From a virus: a stretch of DNA of 64,000 nucleotides. The notes beneath the pieces are model-generated. The model saw only the letters and a program-made list of their open reading frames with translations, did no database searches and was not told where the DNA came from. The stretch's first letter is position 1. The number at the start of each line of letters is the position of its first letter. Positions 456 through 63,266 of this stretch are shown piece by piece. The stretch is from positions 1-64,000 of IMG/VR virus record IMGVR_UViG_3300025087_000941, one strand, 5' to 3'. The translations under genes and the position numbers were made by a program.

Positions 456-692
456 ATGAGCGAAGAAACAATCACGGTAAGATTCTTGAATCACTTTGGT
501 GGCGGGTTTGCGGAGAAGTTTACGGTTCGTGCTGGCACAACCGTCGGCGAATTCTTGCAAACTCACTTCAATGAAGAAAGGCCTGCGTCATCGTTCAAGA
601 TTCGCGTTAACCGCAATCCGGCTGGGCGCGATGAAGTACTTACGAATGACGCGCTGGTGGTACTTACGCCGTTGAAGCAAGAAGGCGCGTAG
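456..692 (+). CDS. Ubiquitin-like beta-grasp protein (ThiS/MoaD/Ubl type)
   Basis: This 78-residue protein has the layout of a beta-grasp fold. An N-terminal strand (TVRFLNHFG) is followed by the turn and helix (VRAGTTVGEFLQTHF), a central strand (FKIRVNR), and the late segment DEVLTNDALVVLTP that matches the final hairpin of ThiS, MoaD and bacterial ubiquitin-like proteins. The tail ends KQEGA, so one residue follows the last glycine. Trimming by the nearby JAMM peptidase could expose a C-terminal Gly, but that is inference. A strong ribosome binding site (agaaagga) sits seven bases before ATG. The E2-like, JAMM and E1-like genes follow within 4.5 kb, which makes a protein-modifier role more likely than sulfur transfer. 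Confidence 0.75.
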   Translation: MSEETITVRFLNHFGGGFAEKFTVRAGTTVGEFLQTHFNEERPASSFKIRVNRNPAGRDEVLTNDALVVLTPLKQEGA

Positions 693-706
693 AAACGGTT
701 AAGTTT

Positions 707-739
707 GGGGGGGCCGCAACAGTAAATCGCGGCCCCCCC
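707..739 (+). terminator. Perfect GC-rich hairpin after the Ubl gene
   Basis: An 11-bp perfect inverted repeat (GGGGGGGCCGC and GCGGCCCCCCC) flanks an 11-base loop, starting 14 bases after the Ubl stop codon. No T-run follows, so it is not a textbook intrinsic terminator. It could slow transcription, protect the 3' end of the Ubl mRNA, or set a higher level of Ubl than of the downstream enzymes. The hairpin is seen directly; the function is inferred. Confidence 0.55.
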
Positions 740-748
740 GACAAAACG

Positions 749-952
749 ATGCTTTTTTCTCGCGAACGACTTTATTGGTCAGCAGAATCTAAGTCTGATA
801 GCCTGACTCGAACTGTCTATGTGTCAATATGCAGCTCAATCGCCTGGACAGCAAAAGATTGTATAGGGCGCAGAGAAGTGGATTTCTCAGAGGTGTCTTC
901 GGGCGGACGCTCCAAAATAAACTCTTTTGTGCTACCGCATGAAATCCTTTAG
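749..952 (+). CDS. Small Ser/Cys-rich protein (SxC family), 67 aa
   Basis: I do not recognise this protein. It carries VSICSS in the middle and KDCIG further on, both of the recurrent Ser-x-Cys type. It fills the space between the hairpin and the AAA+ gene and ends 14 bases before that gene's ATG. The C-terminal part (NSFVLPHEIL) shows no known motif. There is no strong ribosome binding site, so the call rests on the open frame, position and motif. Confidence 0.4.
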   Translation: MLFSRERLYWSAESKSDSLTRTVYVSICSSIAWTAKDCIGRREVDFSEVSSGGRSKINSFVLPHEIL

Positions 953-966
953 CGTCTGCGTAATTT

Positions 967-2157
967 ATGCTTGATGACATTGTAAAATTCGCCGCGGCAA
1001 ATCAAATCTTTGTCGGATTAATGGGAGCGGCATCTGTCGGCACAGCAGCCTACACTTTGAGAGCACTTCCAAGACTTCTTCAGGACATGGCTAGATGGCT
1101 ATTCTCGGTTGAGATTCTAATCTTCAACACAGACAGTTTCTTTGGTCCTCTAGCCGACTGGTTGATGAAGCATCCCCATACTCAAAAGGTTCGAACATTG
1201 CGTGCTATAGATATTAAAGTTCTAGATTCTGACCATCAGTCTTGGTCGATGGCCCCGGGAGAAGGATGGCACTGGTTTAGGCACGATGGTAGATGGTACT
1301 GGTATTGCAGAAGCATAGACCGCGAGAATTCGCGCGGCAACTTCACCCGAGAAAGTCTTGTTATACGAACGTGGGGCCGTCGACAAGACTCGTTGTATAA
1401 GATATTAAATCTTGTGAACGACTCCCAAAAAGCGATATCTGGGGTTGAAGTAAGGGTTTTCTCTGGTGGTTACTGGCAAAAAATAGGTTACAAATCCGCA
1501 AGACGAGTATCGTCTATATTAAGCGGTGATGGGGCGGCGAATAAACTACTCAAAGATGCCCGTTGGTTTTTGTTGTCATCGAATTGGTATGCCGATCGAG
1601 GAATTCCGTATCGTCGCGGCTATCTTTTTTACGGAGAGCCAGGAACAGGTAAAACATCTTTGGCACACGTTCTAGCAAGCGAACTTGATATTCCGCTTTA
1701 CTTTTTGCCTCTTGGATCTGTAAAAGACGATGACGATCTTAACGAAGCATTTCTCCAGGTAAAACCTAGATCTATTCTTCTAATCGAGGATATAGATGTA
1801 GCCCGCGCAAGTATGGAACGGTCTAAAGAGTCGGAATCGGGCTCGGACGACGGAGAAAAGAAATCTCGATCGGGCATTACGTTGTCTGGATTGCTAAATG
1901 TCATCGACGGCATAGTAGCATCAGACGGCCGGATACTAATAATGACGACAAATCATCCTGACAATCTGGATGCAGCTTTAGTGCGTCCGGGTCGTGTTGA
2001 TGTTAGGTTGTCGTTCGGTAAAGTGTCCAAAGAGGATGCGTTACCAATGATACAAAGATTCGGTTTTGACATAGCTAACATCGATTTAGGTATACAATGG
2101 CCGGCGACTCCGGCAACAATTCAGACAGCGTTGCTCAGTCTCGCTGGGCAGCAATGA
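967..2157 (+). CDS. BCS1-like AAA+ ATPase
   Basis: This 396-residue protein begins with a hydrophobic stretch (about residues 12-30) that could be a membrane helix. A BCS1-type N-terminal region follows, with WHWFRHDGRWYWY at 101-113. The AAA+ core has Walker A GEPGTGKT (223-230), Walker B LLIEDID (271-277), sensor TTNHPDNLD (327-335) and arginine finger RPGR (340-343), the order seen in mitochondrial BCS1. Eukaryotic BCS1 moves folded proteins across a membrane; bacterial and phage relatives are poorly known. Its place between the Ubl and E2-like genes suggests it unfolds, moves or recruits proteins for the conjugation module. The stop overlaps the next small gene by ATGA. Confidence 0.9.
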   Translation: MLDDIVKFAAANQIFVGLMGAASVGTAAYTLRALPRLLQDMARWLFSVEILIFNTDSFFGPLADWLMKHPHTQKVRTLRAIDIKVLDSDHQSWSMAPGEGWHWFRHDGRWYWYCRSIDRENSRGNFTRESLVIRTWGRRQDSLYKILNLVNDSQKAISGVEVRVFSGGYWQKIGYKSARRVSSILSGDGAANKLLKDARWFLLSSNWYADRGIPYRRGYLFYGEPGTGKTSLAHVLASELDIPLYFLPLGSVKDDDDLNEAFLQVKPRSILLIEDIDVARASMERSKESESGSDDGEKKSRSGITLSGLLNVIDGIVASDGRILIMTTNHPDNLDAALVRPGRVDVRLSFGKVSKEDALPMIQRFGFDIANIDLGIQWPATPATIQTALLSLAGQQ

Positions 2158-2351
2158 TCTACGGTTTTCGATATGGGTCCGGCAGCTGCAAAGCGATTAA
2201 GTATAGCTGGGTTCTATCTGCTATAAGCGGGCTAAGAACCCGCACTACAAGGAGTTGGTCCTACAATTGGTGTGCGTCTTGTAGTTCGGGAACTTCTTTT
2301 TCTGTGATTGATGGCGTCCCATACTCTGCTTGTCTTACGACTCTAAAATGA
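2154..2351 (+). CDS. Small Ser/Cys-rich protein (SxC family), 65 aa
   Basis: This gene starts inside the stop of the AAA+ gene (ATGA) and its own stop overlaps the next start (ATGA), so it is translationally coupled on both sides. The protein is rich in Ser, Arg, Tyr and Trp, with GSCKA near the start, WCASCSSG in the middle (a CxxC pair) and YSACLTTLK at the end. No known family was recognised. Confidence 0.6.
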   Translation: MIYGFRYGSGSCKAIKYSWVLSAISGLRTRTTRSWSYNWCASCSSGTSFSVIDGVPYSACLTTLK

Positions 2352-2566
2352 TGCTGTCGCAAACTAGAGTTTTCTTATCGGGAGGATCAACAATCGGATG
2401 TGGTAGTGACAAGATGTCTCGATTACGAATTAGAGCTATATCCTATCCAAGTTACATTAAATCGAATTGTTCGGACTGTAACTCGCTTTCATCTGGATGG
2501 AGCTATTCTAGTTGTGGGACGAGAAATTGCCTGTGGACAGCATGGTCGGATTGTAGGCGGCCATAA
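2348..2566 (+). CDS. Small Ser/Cys-rich protein (SxC family), 72 aa
   Basis: This gene is coupled to the preceding small gene by ATGA. Six cysteines occur in IGCG, SNCSDCNS, YSSCGTRNC and SDCRRP at the C-terminus, including a CxxC pair that could bind zinc. The stop region resembles the end of the partial gene at the left window edge. It lies directly upstream of the E2-like gene, so the three genes from AAA+ to here form one coupled unit leading into the conjugation enzymes. Confidence 0.6.
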   Translation: MMLSQTRVFLSGGSTIGCGSDKMSRLRIRAISYPSYIKSNCSDCNSLSSGWSYSSCGTRNCLWTAWSDCRRP

Positions 2567-2586
2567 AAATCTATTCCGGAGAGAAA

Positions 2587-3630
2587 ATGGACAAGACAGA
2601 TCGACAACTACATAAACGAGCTTACAAAATATACTGTTCGTTGAAGTCCAACTTGGACTCTGATTATGAAAGGGCCTTAGACGAGAAACTAGAAAAAGAT
2701 ATCTGGAGATTTCGACGTTTGGAGCACACGGTCAAATTGCTTTATACGTCATTGGATCGTAGCGAAAACTTGTCTAGAATAAGGTCTAAGTTAGTGACTA
2801 AGCTTTACGCTTTCGACTTTTCAGACGAGCCAAAAGCAAAAATTCAAATCGAGGGGCGAAGGACGTGGATCTCCAACTTCGTAGGAAGTATAAAGCATCT
2901 TCTAGCCAACGGAGCAACTTGCAAAAGGGACGTGATAGAGATGCGTATTGAAGACGTCGAGCTGGATGGCATTATTCTCGGAGACTATGCCGTTAGTGTT
3001 GACTTACGCGATGTCGCATCCGATGGCGTAGCTAGCGACATTAACTGTGTATCCATAGAAATGCTAAATACGGAGAACATGAGTAATAATGGAAATCCAC
3101 ATCCGCATATTTCTCCTGACGGACACATCTGTTGGGGAAACACTAAGCCAGCTATTCGGGCATCACTGCTTGTTGGAGATTTAGTCGGTATATTTGACAA
3201 TGTGGAGTCTTTCCTGCGCACATACAACGACTCATCTCCTTATTACCCCTTAAGTCAGTGGAACGGGCGTTGTTGTGAGCAATGTGGGTCAGAGACAGAG
3301 AACGTTTGCGAAAGTTGCGACAATGCTGACTGCTGCGGTACCTGTTGCTCCTTGTGCGGCAGTTATCGATGCCAAAGTTGTGCAGAGGATTATAACTACT
3401 GCGATTGTTGCCGCACGTCTCTTTGCTCTCAGTGCCTATCTCGTCTAGATAGTCGTTGTTTCGACTGCGGCGGTTGCGGCTGTGCTAAACAATGCTTGGA
3501 ATGTGGAATTGCTACGTGTAATAATTGCGATAGCGGATGGGAAGACGATTGGTGCCTAGAATGCCTAGAAAAACAACGTGCGGAAGAAGATGCGGAAGCC
3601 GAAGAAAGCGAGGCCGAGATTGAAGCCTGA
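2587..3630 (+). CDS. E2-like ubiquitin-conjugating (UBC fold) protein with C-terminal cysteine-rich domain
   Basis: The 347-residue protein has an N-terminal helical region, then an E2-like core containing HPHISPDGHICWG at 172-184. This matches the E2 active-site signature HPN(I)...G.ICL, making Cys182 the likely thioester cysteine. A following segment (LLVGDLVGIFDNVESFL) resembles the helix after the E2 active site. From about residue 239 to 330 there are 27 cysteines, mostly as CxxC or CC pairs, suggesting several bound zinc ions in a treble-clef or RING-like arrangement, and then an acidic tail. An E2 fused to a zinc domain could combine E2 and E3 roles, which is inference. The stop lies inside the start region of the JAMM gene. 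RBS ggagag precedes ATG. Confidence 0.75.
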   Translation: MDKTDRQLHKRAYKIYCSLKSNLDSDYERALDEKLEKDIWRFRRLEHTVKLLYTSLDRSENLSRIRSKLVTKLYAFDFSDEPKAKIQIEGRRTWISNFVGSIKHLLANGATCKRDVIEMRIEDVELDGIILGDYAVSVDLRDVASDGVASDINCVSIEMLNTENMSNNGNPHPHISPDGHICWGNTKPAIRASLLVGDLVGIFDNVESFLRTYNDSSPYYPLSQWNGRCCEQCGSETENVCESCDNADCCGTCCSLCGSYRCQSCAEDYNYCDCCRTSLCSQCLSRLDSRCFDCGGCGCAKQCLECGIATCNNCDSGWEDDWCLECLEKQRAEEDAEAEESEAEIEA

Positions 3631-4327
3631 ACTGCTGTTCACCCCTTATGCGTGGAAGAAACTAGTTTATCTTCGAGATCTGTCCGATAACGAAGTGGGT
3701 GCATTAGGGGTCTCTGTCCCCGGAAAACCCCTGGTCATAGCAGATCTGCTAGTTCCAAAGCAACTCGTGTCGTGGGTATCAGTTGCGTTCGACATGGATA
3801 ATGTGTCGGACTTGTATGCGGACATGTCGGAGAAAAATCGTCCGATGGAGGAGTTTGCGAGGGTGTGGATTCACACGCACCCAGGTAGCTCGGCTACCCC
3901 ATCTGGAACTGACGAGAATACGTTTATGACCAACTACGGAACCTGTAATTGGTCAGTTATGTTCATTCTTGCGAAATCGGGCGCCACGACAGCCTGCCTT
4001 CGATTGAAAACACCACAAAAACTCGACATCCAACTTGGAGTTGGTATCGACTGGACAGTTCCGTTTGATGCTACAGATGAAGTTGAATGGAAGAGCCATT
4101 ACGCACAATCGATATCTGTTTATGTGCCACCAGTCATTGTAAAGCCGACTACTTGTGTCACTAAATCAGCTAACGTGAGAGATGCTTACGAAGACGCGGG
4201 CATTTTTACGGCGGAGGATTTGTGGGAAGATGGTAGTGCCGATTGGTGGGCCAATCCAGAAGACATGTCATACGAAGATGTCGAAGACGAACTCTTTCAG
4301 CAAGAGCTTAAGGATGGCAAGGCATGA
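3578..4327 (+). CDS. JAB/MPN (JAMM) isopeptidase, deubiquitinase-like
   Basis: All JAMM metal-site residues are present: Glu39 in NEVGALG and the signature HTHPGSSATPSGTD at 99-112 (H99, H101, S109, D112). This is the zinc-dependent peptidase fold of Rpn11-type deubiquitinases and bacterial Ubl-processing enzymes. The likely role is maturing the Ubl tail or removing Ubl from targets. The C-terminal third (about 190-249) is acidic and lacks a recognised domain. GTG at 3578 gives the longest form; ATG at 3590 is an alternative, and either overlaps the end of the E2-like gene. The stop overlaps the E1-like start by ATGA. Confidence 0.88.
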   Translation: MRKKMRKPKKARPRLKPELLFTPYAWKKLVYLRDLSDNEVGALGVSVPGKPLVIADLLVPKQLVSWVSVAFDMDNVSDLYADMSEKNRPMEEFARVWIHTHPGSSATPSGTDENTFMTNYGTCNWSVMFILAKSGATTACLRLKTPQKLDIQLGVGIDWTVPFDATDEVEWKSHYAQSISVYVPPVIVKPTTCVTKSANVRDAYEDAGIFTAEDLWEDGSADWWANPEDMSYEDVEDELFQQELKDGKA

Positions 4328-4962
4328 ACCGGTACTCCCGATACGAGGGAATTCTATCGCCAGAGAAGTTACGCGCGCAAGAAGTTACTGTAGTAGGAGT
4401 TGGGGCTATAGGGCGACAGGTTGCTTTGCAACTTGCTACGGTGGGAGTTGGCAAACTCGATCTGTGGGATTTTGATACTGTCGGAGAAGAAAATCTAGGA
4501 ACCCAAGGATATCGACCAGATCAAGTTGGGAAAAGCAAGGTTGATGTCACTAAAGAAGACCTACTTCTTATCAATCCTGAGCTGGTTGTAGAGATACACA
4601 ACCAAAAAATCGGGATGGGGTCAACGACAGCCGATGTTGTAGCTATGTGTGTAGACTCTATTGACGTAAGGAAGAGATTCTTCCTTCGAAACGGAGAGTT
4701 GCTGAAGCTGCTTGTCGATGGTAGAATGAGCGCTGAAACGATTCGAGTTTTAACAAGCAAACACGGAGACGGTAACTACAAAGACAGTTTCTTCGAGCCA
4801 GGGGAAGCTTTTGCCGGTAGTTGCACGACGAAGAGCACGTTCTATTCGGCGTCAATAGCTGCCGGACTAATGGTAGCTGAGATCGCCAAGTGGTTACGAG
4901 GTTACGAAACAACCGCTGACATGACCGTAGATTTACTGTCGAGTGATCTCGCAGTGTCGTGA
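4324..4962 (+). CDS. E1-like (ThiF/MoeB family) adenylating enzyme
   Basis: This 212-residue single-domain E1 has the nucleotide loop GVGAIG at 25-30, acidic residues in LDLWDFD (45-51), then NLGTQGY with the RPDQVGKSK segment typical of ThiF/MoeB/E1 adenylation domains. The usual Arg after NL is replaced, as also occurs in prokaryotic E1-JAB systems. Cys in GSCTTKS near the C-terminus is a candidate for thioester transfer, not proven. The expected reaction is ATP-dependent adenylation of the Ubl C-terminus and transfer to the E2-like protein. It is coupled to the JAMM gene by ATGA. Confidence 0.88.
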   Translation: MNRYSRYEGILSPEKLRAQEVTVVGVGAIGRQVALQLATVGVGKLDLWDFDTVGEENLGTQGYRPDQVGKSKVDVTKEDLLLINPELVVEIHNQKIGMGSTTADVVAMCVDSIDVRKRFFLRNGELLKLLVDGRMSAETIRVLTSKHGDGNYKDSFFEPGEAFAGSCTTKSTFYSASIAAGLMVAEIAKWLRGYETTADMTVDLLSSDLAVS

Positions 4963-4974
4963 AAGGATGTGCCA

Positions 4975-5181
4975 ATGACCAAACGAAAAAATAAGGTGGT
5001 TGTGGATATCGAAAAAACCGCAAAACCGGATATTACTTTGTATAAGTCCGACGATGGCCTAGTTCACCCAACAAGAAAAGCTGCTAAGATTCGTAACAAG
5101 CGGAACAAAAATTTCGGCGTGTTTGGGCGTGATGACCCTACGGAAGATATGTGGGACGACTTTTGTTCCAGAAATTGGTAA
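4975..5181 (+). CDS. Small basic hypothetical protein
   Basis: A 68-residue Lys-rich protein with an acidic C-terminal end (DDPTEDMWDDFCSRNW). The ribosome binding site gaaagga lies about eight bases before this ATG, which is why I prefer it over the GTG six bases upstream. It follows the E1-like gene by 12 bases and may be the last gene of the conjugation operon. No family was recognised. Unlike the tiny Ser/Cys genes, it has ordinary composition and a good ribosome binding site. Confidence 0.65.
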   Translation: MTKRKNKVVVDIEKTAKPDITLYKSDDGLVHPTRKAAKIRNKRNKNFGVFGRDDPTEDMWDDFCSRNW

Positions 5182-29917: not shown

Positions 29918-29977
29918 AGTGCGACGCTCAAATAAGATTTGTTATGCAAACCCGTAACTGGTATCGGCCGGTCAATT

Positions 29978-30472
29978 ATGCCGACTAAATTTGTAAAAGG
30001 CGATCTGTTCGCGTATCCGGGGCTAACCGCGATTGCCCACGGATGTAACTGCGCGGGAAGAATGGCAAGAGGCATCGCTGTAGAGTTTAAGAATCGCTTT
30101 CCGATCATGTATAAGGAGTATCGGAAGCTATGCGACGATAGGCAGCTTAATATCGGAGATGTGTTTACGTGGCAAGCGTCTAGCAAAACAAGCATCGTTG
30201 TATTCAATCTTATGACCCAGAAAACTTGGATGACGACAGCTGAGCTACCAGCAGTAGAAAAAGCTTTACGAGGGGCCATATGCCAGGCCAAGTCTATGGG
30301 GATAGAAAAAATAGGGCTTCCCCGCATAGGGGCGGGACTTGGTAAGCTTCCTTGGGACGACGTAAAAAAGATTCTTGTACAGGTTGGCTCGGAAACGTCC
30401 ATCGAACTGGTAGTAATCGAAACATATGTGCCCCCAACTACTAACAAAAAATTAGGTGTTCGTATACGATGA
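29978..30472 (+). CDS. Macro domain protein (ADP-ribose binding/hydrolase)
   Basis: The 164-residue protein has the macro-domain start VKGDLFAY, AHGCNCAGRMARGIAVEF in place of the usual NAANxxGxMGxG loop, and GLPRIGAGLGKLPWDDVKKI, the ADP-ribose phosphate loop. Macro domains bind ADP-ribose or remove it from proteins and DNA. With NAD-pathway genes 1.4-2.4 kb downstream, it may counter ADP-ribosylating or NAD-consuming defences. ATG chosen at the domain start; the stop is ATGA-coupled. Confidence 0.85.
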   Translation: MPTKFVKGDLFAYPGLTAIAHGCNCAGRMARGIAVEFKNRFPIMYKEYRKLCDDRQLNIGDVFTWQASSKTSIVVFNLMTQKTWMTTAELPAVEKALRGAICQAKSMGIEKIGLPRIGAGLGKLPWDDVKKILVQVGSETSIELVVIETYVPPTTNKKLGVRIR

Positions 30473-31853: not shown

Positions 31854-32624
31854 ATGATAACTATAAACAAACATGTTCTTAAGCCGACGATCTTTCCAGA
31901 CCGAACAAGCCAGGTATGGCATTTGCCAAAGAGAACTATTCGTAAACGCAACCGAATTGTGTGGGTGTTCGAGAACGATGCCGAAATTTTTCACTTGTGC
32001 CAGCTGAAAGACCTACTCGACGCTAGCGGGTCAGAATTTTGCGACGTTAGAGTAGATTATCTTCCATACGCAAGGCAAGACAAGAGCATAACCAATAATT
32101 CGTGTTTCGCGCTTCACACGTTTTCCAGGATATTAAACTCGTGTCAATTTGACGATGTGTACTTCTTCGACGGGCACAGCGAAAAATCGACAGAGCTTGT
32201 CGACAACGCATGGAACTCTTTGCCCGAAAAGTTTCTCGTAGGCCCTGTAAATAAAGTCCGAGCGGATACAATAGCTTATCCCGATAAGGGAGCAGCCGAT
32301 CGTTATGACAAGAGCTATGACGAGCTGTTGGGAAGTAAGAAGCCCGGCACCGTATTTGGCCACAAAAAGCGGGATCCCAGAACCGGCCATGTAAAGTATA
32401 CTCGTCTAACAGGAGAAGTAGCTGGAACTACCCTTATCGTGGACGACATTTGCGATGGCGGCATGACGTTTGTCTTATTTGCTGAGATGCTTTATCGGAA
32501 CGGCGCATCAGAAGTTCATCTGTACGTCACCCACGGAATTTTCAGCCGTGGCCTTAAACCACTTCAAGACGCGAGGATCAAACGAATTTTTACCAAAGAT
32601 GGGGAAGTTACGAGACGATGGTAA
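31854..32624 (+). CDS. PRPP synthetase-like enzyme, likely ADP-ribose pyrophosphokinase of NARP1 (Adps)
   Basis: The 256-residue protein has the PRPP-synthetase signatures DYLPYARQDK and the PRTase loop TLIVDDICDGGMT. It is shorter than housekeeping Prs (about 310) and its N-terminus differs. It is two genes upstream of a NAMPT-like gene. Phage pairs of a Prs-like Adps and a NAMPT-like Namat form NARP1, which rebuilds NAD+ from ADP-ribose and nicotinamide. The pairing fits that pathway, but ordinary PRPP synthesis for NMN formation cannot be excluded from sequence alone. Confidence 0.78.
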   Translation: MITINKHVLKPTIFPDRTSQVWHLPKRTIRKRNRIVWVFENDAEIFHLCQLKDLLDASGSEFCDVRVDYLPYARQDKSITNNSCFALHTFSRILNSCQFDDVYFFDGHSEKSTELVDNAWNSLPEKFLVGPVNKVRADTIAYPDKGAADRYDKSYDELLGSKKPGTVFGHKKRDPRTGHVKYTRLTGEVAGTTLIVDDICDGGMTFVLFAEMLYRNGASEVHLYVTHGIFSRGLKPLQDARIKRIFTKDGEVTRRW

Positions 32625-32901: not shown

Positions 32902-35307
32902 ATGACGAGCTATATCCCGACTTTGTTGTGCGACTTTTACAAAATAAGTCATCGAGAACAATACCCGCAAGGAACGGAGGTAGTGTACTCGACCTGGACA
33001 CCTAGATCTTCCAGGATTCCAGAGATCGATCATGTAGTCAATTTCGGGCTTCAGGGTTTTATCGAAGAATGGTTGATTGGCTACTTCGGTACCAATTTCT
33101 TCGCCCGTTCTGTCGAAGATGTGGTTGCAGAATACACGAGGTATATCAGGCATACGCTTGGAGTTTCTGACCCACAAGACCAGCACATCCGAGACTTGCA
33201 CGCTTTGGGATACCTTCCCCTGCTTATTAAAGCGTTGCCAGAGGGAACCGAAGTGCCAATACGGGTTCCGATGTTTACGATCCAAAATACAAAGAAAAAA
33301 TTCTTTTGGCTGACAAACTATCTAGAGACACTCATATCCACCGAACTATGGCAGTCGATGACTTCAGCAACAATTGCGAAGCGATATCGGCGGATACTAG
33401 ATCGTTACGCAGATGAGACAGGCGGGGATCTCGGATTTGTCCCATTTCAGGGCCACGACTTTTCTATGCGGGGTATGAGCAGCATAGCCAGCGGAGCGCG
33501 AAGCGCCGCCGGGCATCTTCTCAGCTTCGTCGGCACCGACACGATAACCGGAATTCAGTACCTAGAAAAGTACTACGACGCTGACATCGAGAAAGAGTTG
33601 GTCGGTTGTTCTATTCCAGCTACTGAGCACAGTGTGATGTGCGCCCACGGACAAGATGAGCTGTCATGCTACCGACGTCTTATCACCGAAGTCTATCCAA
33701 AGGGCTTTATATCGATTGTTTCCGACACGTGGGATTTGTGGAAAGTTCTCTCTGACGCGATAGCTCCACTTAAAAACACGATCCTTAGTCGGGATGGCAA
33801 AGTCGTCATAAGACCCGATTGTTATGCCGACGACACCATGATTTTAACTCAAGATGGTTGGAAGCTTTTCAAAGATTTGGACGAAAACAACGATCTTGTT
33901 GCTCAGGTGCATGAAAACGGTATGCGTGAATTTGTTAAACCGATTAGATATATTAAACAAAACTACACCGGAGAAATGATCTCTTTCAGCGACGGTAAGG
34001 GGAAACTGGATTTACTCGTTACCCCAAATCATAGAATGGTATTCTACCAAAACCACAAAATTAAAATCCAGGAAGCGAAAGACGCCAGGGTCGGTTTTTG
34101 GGAGAAGGATATTATTAGAAGCGCGGAAATGCCGTCGAGAGGCATATCTTTGTCCCCACTTGAGAGACTTAAAATCGCATTTCAAGCTGATGGTTCTTAT
34201 CTTACAAGAGGCCACGGAATAAGATTTAGTTTTTCTAAGCAACGTAAAATCGACAGATTAAAAGATATTTTAGCCCTGGTCGGAGTAAAATACAAAATAT
34301 ACAACTTATCGGATGGTAAATTTGAGTTCAACGTTCACATAGACGAGTCTATCATGCAAAAAAACTTTGGTTGGGTTACTACATCTGATTTGTGTGGAAA
34401 TTGGAGCAGAGAATTCATTGAGGAATTGTCCTACTGGGATGCAACAAGGCGAAGTGAGCATAGATTCAAATTTGATACAACGAATCCGGGAGTGATGGCT
34501 GATGTTGAGTTGATAGCGTTAGCTGCTGGATACGGAATATATATAACCAGTCGTGAAGACAACCGAAAAGATTGTTTTTCGGATGTTTACACTGCCCACA
34601 TACTTAAATCGAATAAACTAGGTGGCCAGTCAGTCCATAAGAAAACTGTAGATTACGATGGTGTTGTATATTCTGTTCAAGTTCCAACGGGCATGCTACT
34701 AGTTAAACGAAACGGTGGGTCGCTAGTATCTGGAAATTCGGGGGACCCCGTAAAAATCGTTTGCGGAGATGCTAGTAATAAAACTGATGCTGCTCGAAAG
34801 GGCGTTATCGAAATTCTGTGGGACATTTTCGGCGGAACAACGAACTTAAAAGGATTCAAACAGTTAGACCCACATATCGGGGCAATTTATGGGGACGCGA
34901 TAAGTCTCGAACGGGTAGAGAAAATTTGTTCGCGTCTAAAAGCTAAGGGATTTGCATCTACCAACATGGTATACGGGATAGGTTCGTTGACATATCAGCA
35001 TAACACTCGGGACACATTTGGGTTCGCGATGAAGTCCACGCATTGTGTGATAAACGGAGTCCAAACTCCGATATTCAAGGATCCTGTCACAGATAACGGG
35101 ACGAAAAAATCGGCTAAAGGGGTAGTTATGGTACACAAAAACGATAGTGGGAGTCTGTGTTTTACCGACGGCCACGACCTATCCGGCGAAGGCCGACCCG
35201 ATCTGTCGCCCGATTTGCTATCCCCCGATTTGCTATCCCCCGTATTCAAAGACGGAAAACTCCTTCGACGCGAGTCACTCAATACTATACGTGCCCGAAT
35301 GCTTTAG
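32902..35307 (+). CDS. NAMPT-like nicotinamide transferase (NARP1 Namat candidate) with intein
   Basis: The extein (about 495 residues after splicing) starts LLCDFYKISHREQYPQGT and has SIVSDTWDLW and the family motif RPDSGDP, as in nicotinamide phosphoribosyltransferase. The motif is split by a 306-residue intein between Asp306 and Ser613. In NARP1 the NAMPT-like Namat joins nicotinamide to ADP-ribose pyrophosphate to give NAD+, restoring NAD+ drained by Thoeris, DSR or similar defences. The C-terminus has a small LSPDLLSPDLLSP repeat. Without splicing the active site would be broken. Confidence 0.85.
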   Translation: MTSYIPTLLCDFYKISHREQYPQGTEVVYSTWTPRSSRIPEIDHVVNFGLQGFIEEWLIGYFGTNFFARSVEDVVAEYTRYIRHTLGVSDPQDQHIRDLHALGYLPLLIKALPEGTEVPIRVPMFTIQNTKKKFFWLTNYLETLISTELWQSMTSATIAKRYRRILDRYADETGGDLGFVPFQGHDFSMRGMSSIASGARSAAGHLLSFVGTDTITGIQYLEKYYDADIEKELVGCSIPATEHSVMCAHGQDELSCYRRLITEVYPKGFISIVSDTWDLWKVLSDAIAPLKNTILSRDGKVVIRPDCYADDTMILTQDGWKLFKDLDENNDLVAQVHENGMREFVKPIRYIKQNYTGEMISFSDGKGKLDLLVTPNHRMVFYQNHKIKIQEAKDARVGFWEKDIIRSAEMPSRGISLSPLERLKIAFQADGSYLTRGHGIRFSFSKQRKIDRLKDILALVGVKYKIYNLSDGKFEFNVHIDESIMQKNFGWVTTSDLCGNWSREFIEELSYWDATRRSEHRFKFDTTNPGVMADVELIALAAGYGIYITSREDNRKDCFSDVYTAHILKSNKLGGQSVHKKTVDYDGVVYSVQVPTGMLLVKRNGGSLVSGNSGDPVKIVCGDASNKTDAARKGVIEILWDIFGGTTNLKGFKQLDPHIGAIYGDAISLERVEKICSRLKAKGFASTNMVYGIGSLTYQHNTRDTFGFAMKSTHCVINGVQTPIFKDPVTDNGTKKSAKGVVMVHKNDSGSLCFTDGHDLSGEGRPDLSPDLLSPDLLSPVFKDGKLLRRESLNTIRARML
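33820..34737 (+). mobile_element. Intein with LAGLIDADG-type endonuclease region
   Basis: The intein begins with Cys (CYADDTMILTQDGW, block A), has block B TPNHRMVFY and a LAGLIDADG-like segment (LERLKIAFQADGSYL). It ends with block F/G (VYSVQVPTGMLLVKRNGGSLV, then SGN) followed by Ser as the +1 residue. It sits exactly inside RPD/SGDP of the NAMPT active site, a typical choice of insertion in a conserved site. The penultimate residue is Gly rather than His. Confidence 0.9.
35194..35240 (+). repeat. 15-bp tandem repeat in the NAMPT-like tail
   Basis: About 2.5 copies of gatttgctatccccc encode PDLLS repeats near the C-terminus. The first copy is degenerate. Confidence 0.7.
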
Positions 35308-39249: not shown

Positions 39250-41553
39250 ATGCTGAACCGATTTTCGTGTGTTGCTTGTGAGCTGCATCAAACATGCCGT
39301 GGTCCAATATCGCCAAGCGAGCCCAGTAACCCGCTTCTGGTTATTTGTGGGGACCGTCCCGGAGCCATCGAAGACATGATGGGGTCGCACTTTATTGGGC
39401 CGATCGGGGAAATACTGGATGATGCGATGGTGTCGGCTGACCTAGCAAGACACGACGCTGTTCTTTTGAATACTGTTCTATGCGCTACCCCGGGAAATCG
39501 CGATGCTACGAAAAAAGAAATGGACGTATGTGTAGCAAAGAACATACTTCCACTAGTCGAGAAATATAAGTCTCTTCCGTGGGTTCTTATGGGAGCGCAT
39601 GCGATAAAACTGATTGGTGGATTGAGTGGCGGCGTTCGTCAGAATCTCGGTCATCGGTGGGTTAGCAAACATGGGTTGAAGTGCTACGCATGTCCAAATC
39701 CAGCCGCTGTTAAACGGGGAATTTACCGAACCGACCAGATAGCTCGAATTCTTCGGTCTGCTCTAGGTAGACTTACAATCGTTGAAATTACCAAGCCGAT
39801 AGCTAGGGTAATTGCAGTCGACACGGAAACGACAGGCCTCGATTTTTATCGAGATGCTCGACCATTCATAGCAACATCTTGTGATGGTAAGCTATCTAAG
39901 CTATATGAACTAGACAGTGCGTCTGAACGGGCTGATCTACAAAAAGACATTGACAGTGCCGATGTGGTTGTAATGGCTAACGCCCTGTTTGATTGTGGCC
40001 ATCTCCGTTCGATAGGAGTGAACGTCGATCTTAGGCGAACATTTGACGTCCAATGGTCTGCGTCCGCAGACGATAGCGGGAATTGCCCCTACAAACTGGA
40101 ACGTCTTGGCGACTATTACTTCAAAAATGGCGGTGCGCATAAGCGAAAATTGGACGAACGGTTGAAGCAGATTCTAGCTGAGCGCGGTGAAAAGACTCTA
40201 TCGGGCGGATTCAAGTCCATTCCCAGAGAAAATTTGAACTCCTATGCTCTGTTCGACGCCACTTTAACGTATGCGTTGTACAATCACCCGGATATGGCCA
40301 GGGCACGAGACGAAAATGATGCCTACATAGCCCGAGAACGCCGACTACTAGAAACGTCACAACATATCGAGGATCGAGGGTTTCTTATCGATCCTAGCCG
40401 AATCCAAGATGCTATACGCAGCATGGAAACTAAAAGGGACCGCGCTTTAGCTGATTTACGAATGCATCCCGATGTTCGACCCGACTTCCCTGATTTCAAC
40501 CCGAGTTCTCATGTTCAAACTCGCAAGCTACTCGATCAACTCGAAATTTACAGTCCTGAGAAGACAAAGACGGGGTCCCCATCCTATGGAAAATTTGCAC
40601 TTTCGCTGATAGAAAGCGACGTGGTTAAGCTGATCTTGGCTTACCGTAGCTATCGTCTACTCGCCGGAGGTGCCTTACAATCTTTGCCCCTCGCAACGGA
40701 TAGCAACAATCGAGTGCACCCGTCATTTCACTCGACGGGCACAGAATCGGGAAGATTCACGTGCAAGACTAGAGCAGAAACCAAAGACGAACGAGTCAAC
40801 CTGCACGGTATTCCGAAAGATAAAAAGGTTCGATCGGTGTTTGTGGCTCCAGAAGGTTGGTCGATAGTTTCAATGGATATGAGTCAGATCGAGAATCGAG
40901 GCACAGCGCACTTTGCCGGGGCAAGGAAACTTATCGACGGTTACAACGCCGATCCAAATATGGACTTCTACGCTGCGATCGCGTCAGAGATATGCCAACG
41001 AAAGATAGACAAGTCGATTCCAGAAGACGCGAAGATTCGGCAGGATACCAAGGCTGTAGTACTGGCAAAGGGCTATGGAGCTGGGTACAAGAAAATTTCC
41101 AAGATGATTCGAAAGTCCCCGGAATATACGCAGGAATTCATCGCTAGATACGATCAAGCGATTCCCGAGTTACACGACTTTATGGCTCGGGTAGGTTCAG
41201 ATGTGTATAAGAAAGGTAAGGTAAGAGTTTTTGACTGGGAGAGTCCGGTAGACAGGAGAGTTGCCTATCAGGGCGTGAATCGTATAATACAAGGAGTGTG
41301 CGCAGTTCACCTGAAAAGGCTGTTAAATGAGATCGACTCGATAATTGCTGGGCACGACGACATTTACGCTGTTTTGCACGTACACGACGAAATAGTGTTT
41401 GAGATCAAAACTTCTCGGTTGTCACACTGGTTACCAATGTTGAAAGAAATAATGGAGAGCGGATGGGACTGGAAAGTTCCTGTTGTTGTGAATACGGAGG
41501 TTGGCAATGACTGGGGATATACGAAGCCTTACGAATACGAAAGAACTAGATGA
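39250..41553 (+). CDS. Uracil-DNA glycosylase-like domain fused to family A DNA polymerase
   Basis: Residues 1-180 look like a family 4 UDG: CVACELHQTC (two cluster cysteines), then GDRPGAIEDMMGSHFIGPIG. A 3'-5' exonuclease domain follows (VIAVDTETTGLDF), then polymerase A with motif A VSMDMSQIENRG, motif B RQDTKAVVLAKGYGAG and motif C LHVHDEIVFE. The fusion would place uracil detection on the replicative polymerase. Total length 767. It is ATGA-coupled to the next gene. Confidence 0.88.
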   Translation: MLNRFSCVACELHQTCRGPISPSEPSNPLLVICGDRPGAIEDMMGSHFIGPIGEILDDAMVSADLARHDAVLLNTVLCATPGNRDATKKEMDVCVAKNILPLVEKYKSLPWVLMGAHAIKLIGGLSGGVRQNLGHRWVSKHGLKCYACPNPAAVKRGIYRTDQIARILRSALGRLTIVEITKPIARVIAVDTETTGLDFYRDARPFIATSCDGKLSKLYELDSASERADLQKDIDSADVVVMANALFDCGHLRSIGVNVDLRRTFDVQWSASADDSGNCPYKLERLGDYYFKNGGAHKRKLDERLKQILAERGEKTLSGGFKSIPRENLNSYALFDATLTYALYNHPDMARARDENDAYIARERRLLETSQHIEDRGFLIDPSRIQDAIRSMETKRDRALADLRMHPDVRPDFPDFNPSSHVQTRKLLDQLEIYSPEKTKTGSPSYGKFALSLIESDVVKLILAYRSYRLLAGGALQSLPLATDSNNRVHPSFHSTGTESGRFTCKTRAETKDERVNLHGIPKDKKVRSVFVAPEGWSIVSMDMSQIENRGTAHFAGARKLIDGYNADPNMDFYAAIASEICQRKIDKSIPEDAKIRQDTKAVVLAKGYGAGYKKISKMIRKSPEYTQEFIARYDQAIPELHDFMARVGSDVYKKGKVRVFDWESPVDRRVAYQGVNRIIQGVCAVHLKRLLNEIDSIIAGHDDIYAVLHVHDEIVFEIKTSRLSHWLPMLKEIMESGWDWKVPVVVNTEVGNDWGYTKPYEYERTR

Positions 41554-42517: not shown

Positions 42518-43255
42518 GTGCCTGTGGGTCTAGTAGCCGTTAATCCGGAGGGAGCTAAACTAAAGCCGAAATCGATAGTTGGAAACTACATAGTCCGCCG
42601 AGAAATACGGTACCCAGACGGAACAAGTAGTAGAGGCGCTTATACTGCCCGACACGTAAATACCGGAAGAAAGTACGTGATCAAGTCCAGATACACAGAA
42701 AGAGAACGAAAAATATTATTCGGTTTCGACCACCCAAACATCGTCAAACCCGTCGAAGTGATCGATTACAGAGGCGATTGTTTTCTTGTGTTGAGTTACG
42801 CCGGTCCAACAATCGAAAAGTTATCCATCAGCAGGTCGGACACCCCATTCACAGATGACCAACTCTACAAAATTCTTCGGTCTCTATTACTTGGTTTATG
42901 CGCAATACACAGCAGGAGTATAGCCCATCGCGACCTACACACCGGAAACGTTGCTGTATCTAGGTTAAGCAATTCATCAATTCTGGATTTTGGATCCGCT
43001 GTGAAATCAAACGGTGATTCAAGATATTTTGCGGATGACATAGAATGTTTTGGCTCCGTGGCTGTCGAGCTATACGCCATCGGGAGATATTTGGGCTATG
43101 ACAGCGTTCCAACAGATAGAGTAGATGGGTGGTTCGGCAAATTTATTGGCTGTGTAAGATGTCGACTTTCAAAGGGCAGAAGGCGCCAATTTAGCGATTC
43201 TCGGAGTAACGAAGCGCTTGTATTTTTGGATGAATGCTACGAAAACGGCGCTTGA
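42518..43255 (+). CDS. Eukaryotic-type Ser/Thr protein kinase
   Basis: The 245-residue kinase has the ATP-binding Lys in YVIKSRY, the catalytic loop IAHRDLHTGNVAV (HRD with the following Asn), DFG in ILDFGSA, and the C-lobe FADDIECFGSVAVELY. It has no membrane helix or sensor domain. Phage kinases of this type phosphorylate host proteins or RNA polymerase; the target here is unknown. The GTG follows directly on the MazG stop. Confidence 0.85.
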   Translation: MPVGLVAVNPEGAKLKPKSIVGNYIVRREIRYPDGTSSRGAYTARHVNTGRKYVIKSRYTERERKILFGFDHPNIVKPVEVIDYRGDCFLVLSYAGPTIEKLSISRSDTPFTDDQLYKILRSLLLGLCAIHSRSIAHRDLHTGNVAVSRLSNSSILDFGSAVKSNGDSRYFADDIECFGSVAVELYAIGRYLGYDSVPTDRVDGWFGKFIGCVRCRLSKGRRRQFSDSRSNEALVFLDECYENGA

Positions 43256-49333: not shown

Positions 49334-49694
49334 TTCTGATGTAATAGTTCTTACAAAAAAGAACTGGAAAGACGCTGCTAATATGGTGAATGCCGGACTG
49401 AGTGTGATGAGCACAGAATTCCATCCCCAGGACAGGATGGCTGTTGCATACGGAATGCTCGATAAGTTCGGATACGTTAAAGACGCTAAGCCCTGGACAG
49501 TTTCGAGTGCGACGGTTTCGTTTTCAAGAGACAAAAACGGGGCCCCAACAGTAAAAATGCAGGTAAAGCCATCGGTTCAGACAAAGATTTTGTACACTAC
49601 AATGTACACGGTCATATTCGTCGTTCTACGAATAAGACTAGCGTTGTTCGACTTTCCAATATGGTGTATCAGAAAGTTATTTCGGCGGCGCTAA
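49320..49694 (+). CDS. Hypothetical membrane protein, 124 aa
   Basis: ATG overlaps the preceding gene by 14 bases. The C-terminal 35 residues are hydrophobic (TTMYTVIFVVLRIRLALFDF) with a basic end (RKLFRRR), so it likely has one membrane helix. Its end overlaps the minus-strand operon by 18 bases (convergent). Confidence 0.6.
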   Translation: MTFCNSDVIVLTKKNWKDAANMVNAGLSVMSTEFHPQDRMAVAYGMLDKFGYVKDAKPWTVSSATVSFSRDKNGAPTVKMQVKPSVQTKILYTTMYTVIFVVLRIRLALFDFPIWCIRKLFRRR

Positions 49695-50288
49695 TTTTTT
49701 CTTTTCTTCCTTATCGACTTGGTCAAAGCTGAATTTGCCTCGGTGATATACGTATGAGTCGAAGCATTTGACCACTCGTTTACCGTGAGCAACAACTCTA
49801 CGATTGTAATCTGTTTCGTTTCCGTAAAAAGGAATGGACTCGTCAAAACCGCCTATTTCGTGCCAAGTACGTCTCCGTAGTCCAAAACAAAACCCCAAAA
49901 CGTCTTTGTCCAGGATTTGTCCTTTGTAGCGTTCGATTGCTGTGATAGCAGCTCTCTCTAGCCAACCACGGCACGGGCTGGCTGGTATTTCATTTGTACC
50001 TATGTCTATTCGATTAGTGCCTTGATTTGCGCCTGGGCCAACTACCGAAACGGATGGGTTTTCGAATGCCTTTAGAAGGGGAATAATCCAGCCAGGAGAC
50101 ACCCATACATCGACATTGAGAAGAAACACGAGTTGTTCGGCCGCATTTTTTACGATCCGATTCCACAGAGTTGTAAGTGGAATGTTATCTTTTGTATTAT
50201 CGATGAATACACAATGTGCTTCTGGTGTCATGTCGAACATCAAAGTACGTGTCTCGTCCTCAATTTCATGCGACCGATAACCAATCAT
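49677..50288 (-). CDS. GT2-family glycosyltransferase (GT-A fold), 203 aa
   Basis: It has LLNVDVWVSPGW with the metal-binding acidic motif, and GGFDESIPFYGNETDYNRRV, typical of GT2 enzymes. It starts two bases after the stop of the upstream gene, which decides the ATG. It is the last gene of the minus-strand operon and ends converging with the plus-strand gene before it. Substrate unknown. Confidence 0.8.
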   Translation of the reverse strand: MIGYRSHEIEDETRTLMFDMTPEAHCVFIDNTKDNIPLTTLWNRIVKNAAEQLVFLLNVDVWVSPGWIIPLLKAFENPSVSVVGPGANQGTNRIDIGTNEIPASPCRGWLERAAITAIERYKGQILDKDVLGFCFGLRRRTWHEIGGFDESIPFYGNETDYNRRVVAHGKRVVKCFDSYVYHRGKFSFDQVDKEEKKKLAPPK

Positions 50289-50290
50289 AA

Positions 50291-51163
50291 CTACTCTAGC
50301 AGAAATGGTATTACCCCCCTGACTCGTTCGATAAACCCGTAATCCGAGATATTTAAACAAACATCAAGATCTGGGACGAAAGTGCTGTTGAGAGCCCAAT
50401 CTATTTTGAGCACAAATTCATCTGTCGAGTACGCCCAGTGTTCTTTTGGCAGCCATTCAATTATAGCCCCGGCGGGATATGCAATTACGTTGAGCCCTGA
50501 TAGATAAGCGTCGGCAGCAGCAAGACCAAACGCTTCGGGCGGACCCGTAGTCCATCCAGCTGTTTGTAAAAATACGCTGTGAGAGTGGTAAAGTTCATCT
50601 ACAACCGACTCGCTCGGGTCCTCGATTAGCGATACTCCAAGAAACCGGCATTCCTCTCTAAGCACCTTCAAAGCATCTTTATGGGTATTGCAAGTTGAAC
50701 CTGCAATTGTAACTGGCACTTCGAAATTCCCCCGTCGGAAGATTTCTACGGCTTTGGCTACACCCTTCGGTACAGTTAGTCGGCCGTGAAACAAAACGCC
50801 CTTGTTATTTGTACGCCCTCTCGTCTTGCCGAATAGCGGTAAGACGACCGGAGTTATTCCCCACGCCGATTTTACCTGCTCTGCGCTCCACTTGCTAGAC
50901 GCAATTACAGTAGTCTGATGAATCCAGGATGCCGTAGTTCCAGCTAGTGGGACGTGGCACCACGTGAAGTGTTTCTTAGCCGATATGGGGACTCCAACTG
51001 GCCGCATGTCGAAGAAGTACTGATACGCACATTTTGGCGAGGGTTCGCCGTTTCCAACGAATGTAACATCGTGGAAAGCAGATAGCCACGTAGCAAAGTC
51101 TTTGCTCCAGCGCTGTCCGCCGCCAATCCCGTCAGACGGATCAAATACCAAAACTCTAGCCAC
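50291..51163 (-). CDS. GT4-like glycosyltransferase (GT-B fold), 290 aa
   Basis: The start RVLVFDPSDGIGGGQRW and the C-terminal GPPEAFGLAAADAYLSG (the EX7E-like donor site) fit GT-B family 4 glycosyltransferases. The segment VLFHGRLTVPKGVAKAVEIF is the usual start of the second domain. It overlaps the upstream gene by eight bases. Sugar and acceptor unknown. Confidence 0.8.
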   Translation of the reverse strand: MARVLVFDPSDGIGGGQRWSKDFATWLSAFHDVTFVGNGEPSPKCAYQYFFDMRPVGVPISAKKHFTWCHVPLAGTTASWIHQTTVIASSKWSAEQVKSAWGITPVVLPLFGKTRGRTNNKGVLFHGRLTVPKGVAKAVEIFRRGNFEVPVTIAGSTCNTHKDALKVLREECRFLGVSLIEDPSESVVDELYHSHSVFLQTAGWTTGPPEAFGLAAADAYLSGLNVIAYPAGAIIEWLPKEHWAYSTDEFVLKIDWALNSTFVPDLDVCLNISDYGFIERVRGVIPFLLE

Positions 51164-51842
51164 GATACTGCTTCCACACGTCGCTTCGCCGGTCCTGCCA
51201 CACCATCGAGTAGCCGCGATCAGAAATCGTAGATGTAATGCCTTCTGGGTTTATTACCCACCAACCACATATCGAGTCTACGTGGGTGTGAGTAGCACCC
51301 GTAAGATGCAGTCGAAGGACAAAGTCATGATCGTATCTCCAAAAAGGCGTATCCGGCTCGAAAAACTGAATTCGTTTGAATAATGACCGCCTGAATACGC
51401 ACCCCTGTAGGGGCACAGTATTTCGGTGTAGGAGGTAGTCGCCTGGGATGCCATCATAAATAGTAGCTGGTTGCCTGTCTTCGCGCAGCTCTTCTACTTT
51501 AGACGAGCACCAGTCAGCTCGGGTTTCGTGACATCGTAATACGAGCTGATGGATGTTGGATGGTGGATCGTCATCAAATCCATGTACCACATAATCCGCT
51601 GTTGACCCGTGAATTGCATTTCCAACCAGAAATCCCGGATTCCCAGTGTGTTTTTTAACAGACCATTTTGAATTTCGAGCGCCATTTGGTAGCTGGAATT
51701 TGCCATCTTGAACAACAATAATGCGAACACCAATATCGTGTTCGTTGTTTGCAAGATTAGTCCACGCAGAGTAGATACCAGCTAATGAAGCTCGTCCAGA
51801 TGATGGGATAATAACATCAACAGTAGGTTTATGGTTCGACAC
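51156..51842 (-). CDS. GT2-family glycosyltransferase, 228 aa
   Basis: VDVIIPSSGRASLAGIY at the start and VVHGFDDDPPSN (acidic donor motif) indicate a GT-A fold family 2 enzyme. PFWRYDHDFVLRLH near the C-terminus corresponds to the catalytic region. It is tightly packed with both neighbours in the glycan operon. Confidence 0.8.
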   Translation of the reverse strand: MSNHKPTVDVIIPSSGRASLAGIYSAWTNLANNEHDIGVRIIVVQDGKFQLPNGARNSKWSVKKHTGNPGFLVGNAIHGSTADYVVHGFDDDPPSNIHQLVLRCHETRADWCSSKVEELREDRQPATIYDGIPGDYLLHRNTVPLQGCVFRRSLFKRIQFFEPDTPFWRYDHDFVLRLHLTGATHTHVDSICGWWVINPEGITSTISDRGYSMVWQDRRSDVWKQYRG

Positions 51843-51844
51843 GG

Positions 51845-52180
51845 CTAACTAGTGAAAACGCCTAGCGTGTTTCGTACATGTTTAAAGATGTCGTAGTCTC
51901 CGTCTTGGGCGGCGGTCGCCAATATAGCAAAAAGATCGGCAGCAAACCCAAAGTTGCCACTTACTAGATGTTGCAAGAACAAAAGTATTGTAACCGACTG
52001 CCAATCATAAGAAAACACGATGTCCTGTTGGATGTTACGTCTGAACAGGTCTAATTCATCGTCGTCAAGTGCGGCCCGTAATTCTTCGACATATTCGATA
52101 AGCTCTTTTTGGAGATGCCGGGGAATTTTGCTGCCTAAGTGATCTACAGTCTTTAGAAATCCTGTAATGTCATTCGTCAT
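51845..52180 (-). CDS. Hypothetical helical protein in the glycan operon, 111 aa
   Basis: Mostly helical (LQKELIEYVEELRAALDDDE, later FAADLFAILATAAQDG). The ATG overlaps the upstream epimerase end by 11 bases. No catalytic motif. It may be an accessory subunit; its role cannot be told. Confidence 0.6.
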   Translation of the reverse strand: MTNDITGFLKTVDHLGSKIPRHLQKELIEYVEELRAALDDDELDLFRRNIQQDIVFSYDWQSVTILLFLQHLVSGNFGFAADLFAILATAAQDGDYDIFKHVRNTLGVFTS

Positions 52181-53171
52181 ACAAAGATGTCTTCCAATGT
52201 TTTGGGGCCTTATCACACGGAGTAGACAGTAGGGTTGGCTCCCAGGGAAATGGGCCACAACGTTTTACCCAATCCACAATATCGATTACAGCTTGTTCCC
52301 ACCCAATGTTCTCGCGGAACCCAAGTAATTGTTTTGCTTTTGTGTGGTCGCAAAAAGCGTGTTTTACTTCCCCGTACCGGCTTTGCAGGTGTTCGATCTT
52401 TGCGTTCGGAACAAGTCCTTGAATAATCCCAGCCATCGCAAGGACTGTTGTTTTGACTTCCCCCCCGATGTTAAACGTATGCCCGTTGGCGTCGGAAGAA
52501 AGAATACACTTAATGTAACAACTAAGAGAATCTTGGATGTTCGAAAACGCCCTTGTCTGTAACCCGTCCCCGTATACAGTCATATGCTCCCCAGCAACTG
52601 CCTTGTTGGCTAGAATTGTGGCGACGTTTCGTAGAGGGTCTACAAACTGGCCTGGGCCTATTACGTTGTGCGGTCGGACGATGCACCAGTCTAAGGAGTG
52701 AGCATCTGCTATCATCCGTGTTGTTTTCTCGATAGCTTCCTTGTTTACTCCGTATGGATCGACTGGCTTAGTTGGCATATCTTCCGTAAACGGAGGCATC
52801 TGATCTCCGTAAACAGACATACTAGAAAAAGATACGATTCGCTTTAACTTGTGGCGAAGGCACGCCTCTACGATAGATGAAAAGGCTCCGAGATTGTTTC
52901 TTGTTACTGAGTCGATTCGATACCATGACGCCCCCTCTCGCGGGTCGGCAGCAAGATGGGCGATAATTTCTGGCTTTGTAACATCTGCTACATACCTAGC
53001 GAATGCGTGGTCAGAAATATCTCCCACTAGGAGGGGAACTCCTGGAACTACATTACGCCCACCAACCATAGAGTCAACACTTGTGACTCGATGGCCTAAG
53101 TCTCGTAGTTCTCGGCAAATATGATGGCCGATAAATCCTGATCCACCAGTTACAAGGATGTTACGCGCCAA
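52170..53171 (-). CDS. NAD-dependent nucleotide-sugar epimerase/dehydratase (extended SDR)
   Basis: The 333-residue protein starts with the Rossmann motif VTGGSGFIGHH (GxxGxxG) and has the catalytic YGVNKE (YxxxK) after SFSSMSVYG. NTP-sugar epimerases and dehydratases of this type remodel UDP-, GDP- or dTDP-sugars. Exact sugar unknown. It overlaps a second epimerase upstream. Confidence 0.88.
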   Translation of the reverse strand: MARNILVTGGSGFIGHHICRELRDLGHRVTSVDSMVGGRNVVPGVPLLVGDISDHAFARYVADVTKPEIIAHLAADPREGASWYRIDSVTRNNLGAFSSIVEACLRHKLKRIVSFSSMSVYGDQMPPFTEDMPTKPVDPYGVNKEAIEKTTRMIADAHSLDWCIVRPHNVIGPGQFVDPLRNVATILANKAVAGEHMTVYGDGLQTRAFSNIQDSLSCYIKCILSSDANGHTFNIGGEVKTTVLAMAGIIQGLVPNAKIEHLQSRYGEVKHAFCDHTKAKQLLGFRENIGWEQAVIDIVDWVKRCGPFPWEPTLLSTPCDKAPKHWKTSLYDE

Positions 53172-59281: not shown

Positions 59282-59286
59282 TTTAC

Positions 59287-63251: not shown

Positions 63252-63266
63252 TATAGTTCCCCAGAA

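Follow-up and report, generated by a model that had tools for sequence, protein, structure and literature searches.

Genes of the locus

The stretch of viral DNA analysed here, referred to as the window, covers 64.0 kb of a 65.8-kb virus record (IMGVR_UViG_3300025087_000941). Near its start, genes for a ubiquitin-like (Ubl) beta-grasp protein, a BCS1-like AAA+ ATPase, an E2-like protein, a JAMM peptidase and an E1-like enzyme follow one another on the plus strand. An earlier note, made from the sequence alone, had read these genes as a single phage operon for Ubl conjugation, and all five are present where it had placed them. The analysis indicates that the Ubl, E2-like, JAMM and E1-like genes probably form a phage-encoded, self-contained and reversible conjugation module, with chemical steps and targets that are inferred, and that the ATPase is probably a neighbour only.

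The Ubl protein (456-692, 78 amino acids) is preceded by the Shine-Dalgarno sequence AAGGATG and was assigned by predicted fold and synteny. Neither this protein nor the E2-like protein has a convincing family match in Pfam, PHROG, NCBIfam or PADLOC. An AlphaFold2 (AF2) model of the Ubl, based on syntenic phage Ubls aligned in 31 rows, reached a predicted local distance difference test (pLDDT) value of 80.6 and a predicted template modelling score (pTM) of 0.68. It displays a beta-beta-alpha-beta-beta-beta order with a disordered or loose C-terminal tail. A Foldseek search of this model against the PDB returned beta-grasp proteins at probability 1.00. The best match was the MoaD-type subunit 6jc0, and further matches included SUMO2 and the Caldiarchaeum ubiquitin 6fno, the latter in complex with its JAMM protein. 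The E-values, from 2e-4 upwards, are modest, which is usual for a fold of 78 residues. The earlier note had named a fold other than beta-grasp as grounds for abandoning its reading; the model predicts a beta-grasp protein.

The window Ubl ends in ..LTPLKQEGA and shows 34% identity along its whole length to the syntenic Ubl of an 81.3-kb viral contig (L008), the closest relative found. The L008 protein reads ..TPTNLKGA where the window has ..TPLKQEGA, and then carries an extension. In the Ubls of crAss-like phages, the last strand is followed by a conserved SG and a C-terminal extension, which is the pattern expected of a pro-modifier.

The product of the next gene of the module (2587-3630, 347 amino acids) is probably E2-like, an assignment based on a motif and weak profile evidence. 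The motif, N-P-H-P-H-I-S-P-D-G-H-I-C182-W-G, includes the cysteine that had been proposed as the acceptor of a thioester. An alignment with 14 rows, covering the window, L008 and clostridial-phage E2 proteins, has P173, C182 and G184 in every row. In hhalign, the window and L008 sequences match the clostridial-phage E2 with an E-value of 2e-5 and a probability of 77 over 36 columns around the cysteine. The window protein alone scores 28 (E 0.0027) against the PRTRC-B/Prok-E2_D profile; the control, in which the columns of the related 14-row alignment and not the single sequence were shuffled 100 times, reached at most 19.6, and the same alignment unshuffled scored 24.8. A profile search of the PDB with the phage E2 families gave no E2 match, and the AF2 model of the window protein (pLDDT 50, pTM 0.28) was uninformative and was set aside. 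A feature absent from the earlier account is the C-terminal tail, in which the last 120 residues (228-347) contain 27 cysteines and 12 CxxC pairs; this tail is predicted to bind zinc. A Xanthomonas phage protein with the motif HPHM..CLG likewise ends in a Cys-rich tail.

The JAMM/MPN+ peptidase gene (3578-4327, 249 amino acids) overlaps the 3' end of the E2 gene, an arrangement that is common among relatives when counted from the first possible starts. Its start codon is GTG, with ATG at 3590 or TTG at 3620 also possible. The match to Pfam Prok-JAB (E 1.9e-4) lies just under the curated cut-off, and the full JAMM signature is in place, namely Glu39 followed by H99-x-H-x7-S-x2-D (HTHPGSSATPSGTD), in agreement with the description of a complete peptidase. 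BLASTP aligns it with the L008 JAB protein at 8e-12.

The E1-like adenylating enzyme of the ThiF/MoeB superfamily (4324-4962, 212 amino acids) is coupled to the JAMM gene through the ATGA overlap at 4324-4327, as had been noted earlier. Its identity as a ThiF-type protein is confirmed by Pfam ThiF (E 1.8e-28), and ThiF/MoeB models are its best-scoring hidden Markov models (HMMs). The protein contains two cysteines in total and has neither CxxC zinc pairs nor a rhodanese domain. An alignment of five divergent phage E1s, among them those of crAss-like, Flavobacterium and Xanthomonas phages, shows no variation at Cys167 or at the ATP-site residues, which makes Cys167 a candidate E1 acceptor cysteine. 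In phylogenetic trees, phage E1s are split from bacterial ThiF-like enzymes with support of 100/99. When PRTRC sequences are included, phage and PRTRC E1s stand together against the ThiF-like (ThiF/MoeB) enzymes (97/91). The window and L008 form a pair (100/96), and monophyly of the phage E1s relative to PRTRC is poorly supported (61/35). Because the branches are long, these trees are used as supporting evidence only.

The four-gene module in other phages

Searches of DNA and protein data with the window E2, E1 or JAMM alone revealed nothing closely related among phages or viral contigs; the E1 search returned distant phage E1s only. The family opened only through paired alignments with these distant E1s, and the resulting E1 alignments recovered 44 viral contigs and 10 bacterial-genome contigs. 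With the HMM profiles built here, the order Ubl-E2-JAMM-E1 on one strand was found in 46 other loci, a number that counts loci and not independent events, since a few phages are present twice (e.g., L040/L041). These loci form two large clades, one of crAss-like phages and one of Clostridia phages or contigs of metagenome-assembled genomes (MAGs), together with Flavobacterium phages. Loci with fewer genes are mostly cut by a contig end, and in L046, L047, L048 and L007 one or more module genes have no profile match.

In Flavobacterium phage Fpv3 and in two crAss-like phages, cr128_1 and Dulem 41, a beta-grasp-like protein and then HSH..C.G and JAB proteins are encoded upstream of the ThiF gene. 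In the cultured phage phiCrAss001, the Ubl, E2, JAMM and E1 correspond to gp79, gp78, gp77 and gp76, which are annotated as hypothetical, hypothetical, metalloprotease and ThiF, respectively. A search with the crAss-type E2 matched 74 phage records. Among 299 Bacillota genomes, the matches to the clostridial E1, its own genome aside, look like ordinary ThiF-type proteins and are mostly limited to the nucleotide-binding core.

L008 carries Ubl, E2-like, JAMM and E1 genes in the same order as the window with no ATPase between them, a set recognised by motif and synteny. Its E1 is 35% identical to that of the window, and its E2-like protein has a C-terminal Cys motif. A second relative of the window type was sought with the window and L008 E1s and was not found. 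Directly upstream of the L008 Ubl gene lies a further small protein (3586-4143) that combines an HPNI..C motif with a terminal CxxC-pair domain, possibly a second E2-like protein. In Clostridia phages and MAGs (L009-L025, L054-L062), the gene downstream of Ubl-E2-JAB-E1 encodes a reverse transcriptase that carries the motif YTRYADD (for example, L012 8184-9338 and L055 7938-9077), and one small gene sometimes lies between JAB and E1. In the Xanthomonas phage locus, a 70-residue gene considered as Ubl and a 243-residue gene considered as JAMM received no support.

The gene surroundings are similar in several lineages. The window genes are accompanied by RNA ligase, RuvC-like resolvase, helicase, exonuclease, Sak4, DNA ligase, primase and PolA, the phiCrAss001 set by helicase, Sak4, primase, uracil-DNA glycosylase (UDG) and resolvase, and the Xanthomonas phage locus by DNA ligase and topoisomerases. 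By association, this context points to a DNA replication or recombination setting.

The BCS1-like ATPase, the hairpin and small open reading frames

The identity of the ATPase (967-2157, 396 amino acids) is clear from Pfam BCS1_N (3e-16) and AAA (3e-21), phrog_7485 (1e-84), the Walker A sequence GEPGTGKT and the Walker B sequence ILLIEDID. Its membership in the conjugation set did not hold. The gene is set off by a hairpin on one side and a gap of ~430 nucleotides on the other. The hairpin, which was missing from the earlier list, lies just 3' of the Ubl gene (704-742, plus strand; GGGGGGGCCGC..GCGGCCCCCCC). It is perfect and GC-rich, with at least 11 base pairs and no T run, and the RNA fold predicted for about 706-740 has an energy of -31 kcal/mol (z -5.3; 0 of 200 shuffles). 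Such an element would act as a terminator or a 3' stabiliser and may allow more Ubl than enzyme to be produced.

As a fifth component, the ATPase was rejected on the basis of its distribution. BCS1 was detectable in one of 30 Ubl-system phages (in L008, ~25-30 kb from the cluster), and none of 54 BCS1 loci on viral contigs had a Ubl, E2, JAB or E1 profile match in the fetched flanks. BCS1 homologues occur in 238 phage records, mostly of large phages, and the BCS1-like ATPases of jumbo phages have been proposed to take part in virion assembly close to the membrane (PMC7824862). The window gene is like those of large phages (phrog_7485, BCS1_N plus AAA) and distinct only in its position. Consequently, it is probably an ordinary phage gene outside the Ubl module.

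The tiny Ser/Cys genes reported as interleaved with the operon also fall away, with coding scores near zero, almost no Shine-Dalgarno sequences and no counterparts found in relatives; the lone hint in their favour is GGGAGG ~11-16 nucleotides upstream of position 2400. Directly downstream of E1, a small basic open reading frame of 70 amino acids (4969-5181, plus strand) has a good coding score (0.18) and the Shine-Dalgarno sequence GAAAGGAT. It has no Pfam, PHROG or NCBIfam match, and no homologue was found.

Comparison with known systems

Bacterial operons combining E1, E2, Ubl and JAB were already described in 2006 (PMC1779556), and later studies have dealt with Bil, CBASS and Bub conjugation. 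The window set resembles PRTRC and operon type 6d in having separate E2 and E1 genes, and type 6d also includes a JAB and a small Ubl (PMC1779556). The PRTRC-B motif YHAPFFNVYENGSVCMG is similar to HPHISPDGHICWG of the window, and phage and PRTRC E1s group against ThiF/MoeB. However, the window proteins fall below the NCBIfam cut-offs (PRTRC_ThiF, 30 of 144.75 bits; Ubl and E2 unmatched), and in the PRTRC loci examined E1 directly follows the E2 gene. The window E2 also differs in its Cys-rich tail, and the window set is phage-borne and located inside a replication block.

The crAss-like cluster (phiCrAss001 gp79-gp76) shares the four genes, their order and strand, and homologous E1 and JAB proteins. 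It differs from the window in a Ubl extended past SG, an E2 with the motif HSH..C[TLI]G and no Cys-rich tail noted, and no BCS1 gene in between. The cluster of Clostridia phages and MAGs, Ubl-E2-JAB-(X)-E1-RT, has the same order and an E2 motif, [NH]PHI..YxC[LMWI]G, near that of the window, whereas its E2 measures ~480-520 amino acids, its Ubl ends in ..KADNA and a reverse transcriptase lies downstream.

With BilABCD and CBASS Cap2/Cap3, the window set shares the logic of conjugating Ubl to a target using E1, E2 and JAB. Cap2 is an E1-E2 fusion. The PADLOC E1-E2 match covers the Rossmann core only. BilA consists of two Ubl domains and the BilD E1 is a two-domain pseudodimer (PMC11354881); the window, in contrast, encodes a single 78-residue Ubl, a single-domain 212-residue E1 and a separate E2, with no cGAS.

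The earlier note had also called the combination unusual in a phage. With 46 further loci the four-gene set is not rare among phages, but no report naming a Ubl-E2-JAMM-E1 set in phages was found among the open-access papers searched, and the set is not mentioned by Yutin 2021 (PMC7886860). The joint meaning of these enzymes in cultured gut crAss-like phages does not appear to have been recognised so far.

Proposed mechanism and alternative explanations

The predicted Ubl fold, the recurrence of the four genes in one order across dozens of phages and the E1 trees support a reversible conjugation module made up of Ubl, E2, JAMM and E1; this part of the earlier reading stands, without the BCS1 ATPase and the tiny Ser/Cys genes. 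In such a module, JAMM would mature the Ubl where a C-terminal extension exists, as in crAss-like phages and L008; the window Ubl, which already ends in ..EGA, would have no extension to trim. E1 would adenylate the Ubl C-terminus, probably with a thioester via Cys167, and the Ubl would then be transferred onto Cys182 of the E2. The Cys-rich zinc tail of the E2 may make a separate E3 unnecessary by selecting the target, and JAMM would later strip the Ubl from targets. The likely targets would be proteins, of the phage or of the host, that take part in DNA replication and recombination, because the module lies inside that gene block in several lineages. A broader proposal is tentative and distinctly less secure than the module itself: that a widespread family of phage-run Ubl conjugation systems, in crAss-like, Flavobacterium, Clostridia and other phages, modifies the replication and recombination machinery, with the zinc domain of the window E2 serving as the E3.

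Several observations weigh against conjugation. The window Ubl does not terminate in Gly but in Gly-Ala, and a terminal Gly is also missing from most clostridial Ubls, whose sequences close with ..KADNA(A). The E2-like protein lacks a usable structure model (AF2 pLDDT 50), and the crAss and clostridial E2 profiles fail to detect each other; for these two reasons the label is kept at 'E2-like'. Xanthomonas and Erwinia phages have an E1 and the E2-like motif, but no Ubl or JAMM was found in them. Finally, the module comes without any known E3 or target.

The foremost alternative, which is nevertheless improbable, is a sulfur carrier system. Here, E1 and JAMM would turn a ThiS/MoaD-like carrier into a thiocarboxylate for cofactor, nucleotide or tRNA modification, and the 'E2' would be something else. 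Ubl-JAB-E1 trios are known from sulfur assimilation (PMC1779556), and both the MoaD-type top match of the Ubl model and the ThiF/MoeB models that score best on E1 fit this explanation. However, the gene before JAB in complete loci, the fourth of the set, has a conserved histidine-cysteine motif, and no sulfur or cofactor enzyme is present among the window genes searched. The earlier note had held that a sulfur-transfer role for E1 and JAMM would overturn its reading; such a role is disfavoured by the E1 tree, which places the phage E1 with PRTRC E1s and not with ThiF/MoeB, and by the missing CxxC pairs, rhodanese domain and cofactor partners.

Slightly less probable again is a counter-defence decoy, in which the phage set would disturb Bil-, CBASS- or Bub-type conjugation of the host, either with JAMM stripping host tags or with the Ubl competing for host E1 or E2. 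Bil and CBASS Cap2 conjugation does counter phages in bacteria (PMC10097602, PMC11354881), JAMM could take tags off, and related systems could exist in hosts. Nevertheless, the full E1-E2-Ubl-JAMM set exceeds the needs of a stripper, is kept across crAss-like phages and is located in a replication block instead of a variable counter-defence island. Very unlikely, finally, is an operon of five parts whose BCS1-like ATPase would work on tagged proteins as a segregase or translocase: eukaryotic AAA+ ATPases handle ubiquitylated proteins and the gene sits between Ubl and E2 in the window, but the hairpin and gaps around it, its near absence from Ubl-system phages, the 54 BCS1 loci free of Ubl genes and the abundance of homologues in large phages, with their proposed virion-assembly role, all oppose it.

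Bacterial Ubl conjugation has so far been studied mainly as a host stress or anti-phage response. If the conjugation module is real, bacterial viruses would run their own reversible protein tagging, with a fixed gene order in very different lineages. The targets of such tagging are directly testable because phiCrAss001 and DAC15, both of which carry E2-JAMM-E1 genes, grow in the laboratory.

Other genes in the window

A nicotinamide phosphoribosyltransferase gene (32902-35307) is split by an intein-like insertion of 306 amino acids (VVIRPD/CYADDTMI ... VSGN/SGDPVKIV). It is closely preceded by a gene resembling phosphoribosyl pyrophosphate (PRPP) synthetase (31854-32624), and positions 29939-30472 hold a macro-domain gene; together, the three suggest NAD metabolism. 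Positions 39250-41553 encode a 767-residue protein that combines a family A DNA polymerase (exo, Pol A) with a uracil-DNA glycosylase domain at the N-terminus (UDG 1.4e-13), and positions 42518-43255 a protein with a protein kinase domain (Pkinase 7.7e-16). A long block on the minus strand (49677-64000) contains glycosyltransferase, sugar-nucleotide epimerase/dehydratase, aminotransferase and methyltransferase-like genes, apparently for phage-carried synthesis of surface sugars.

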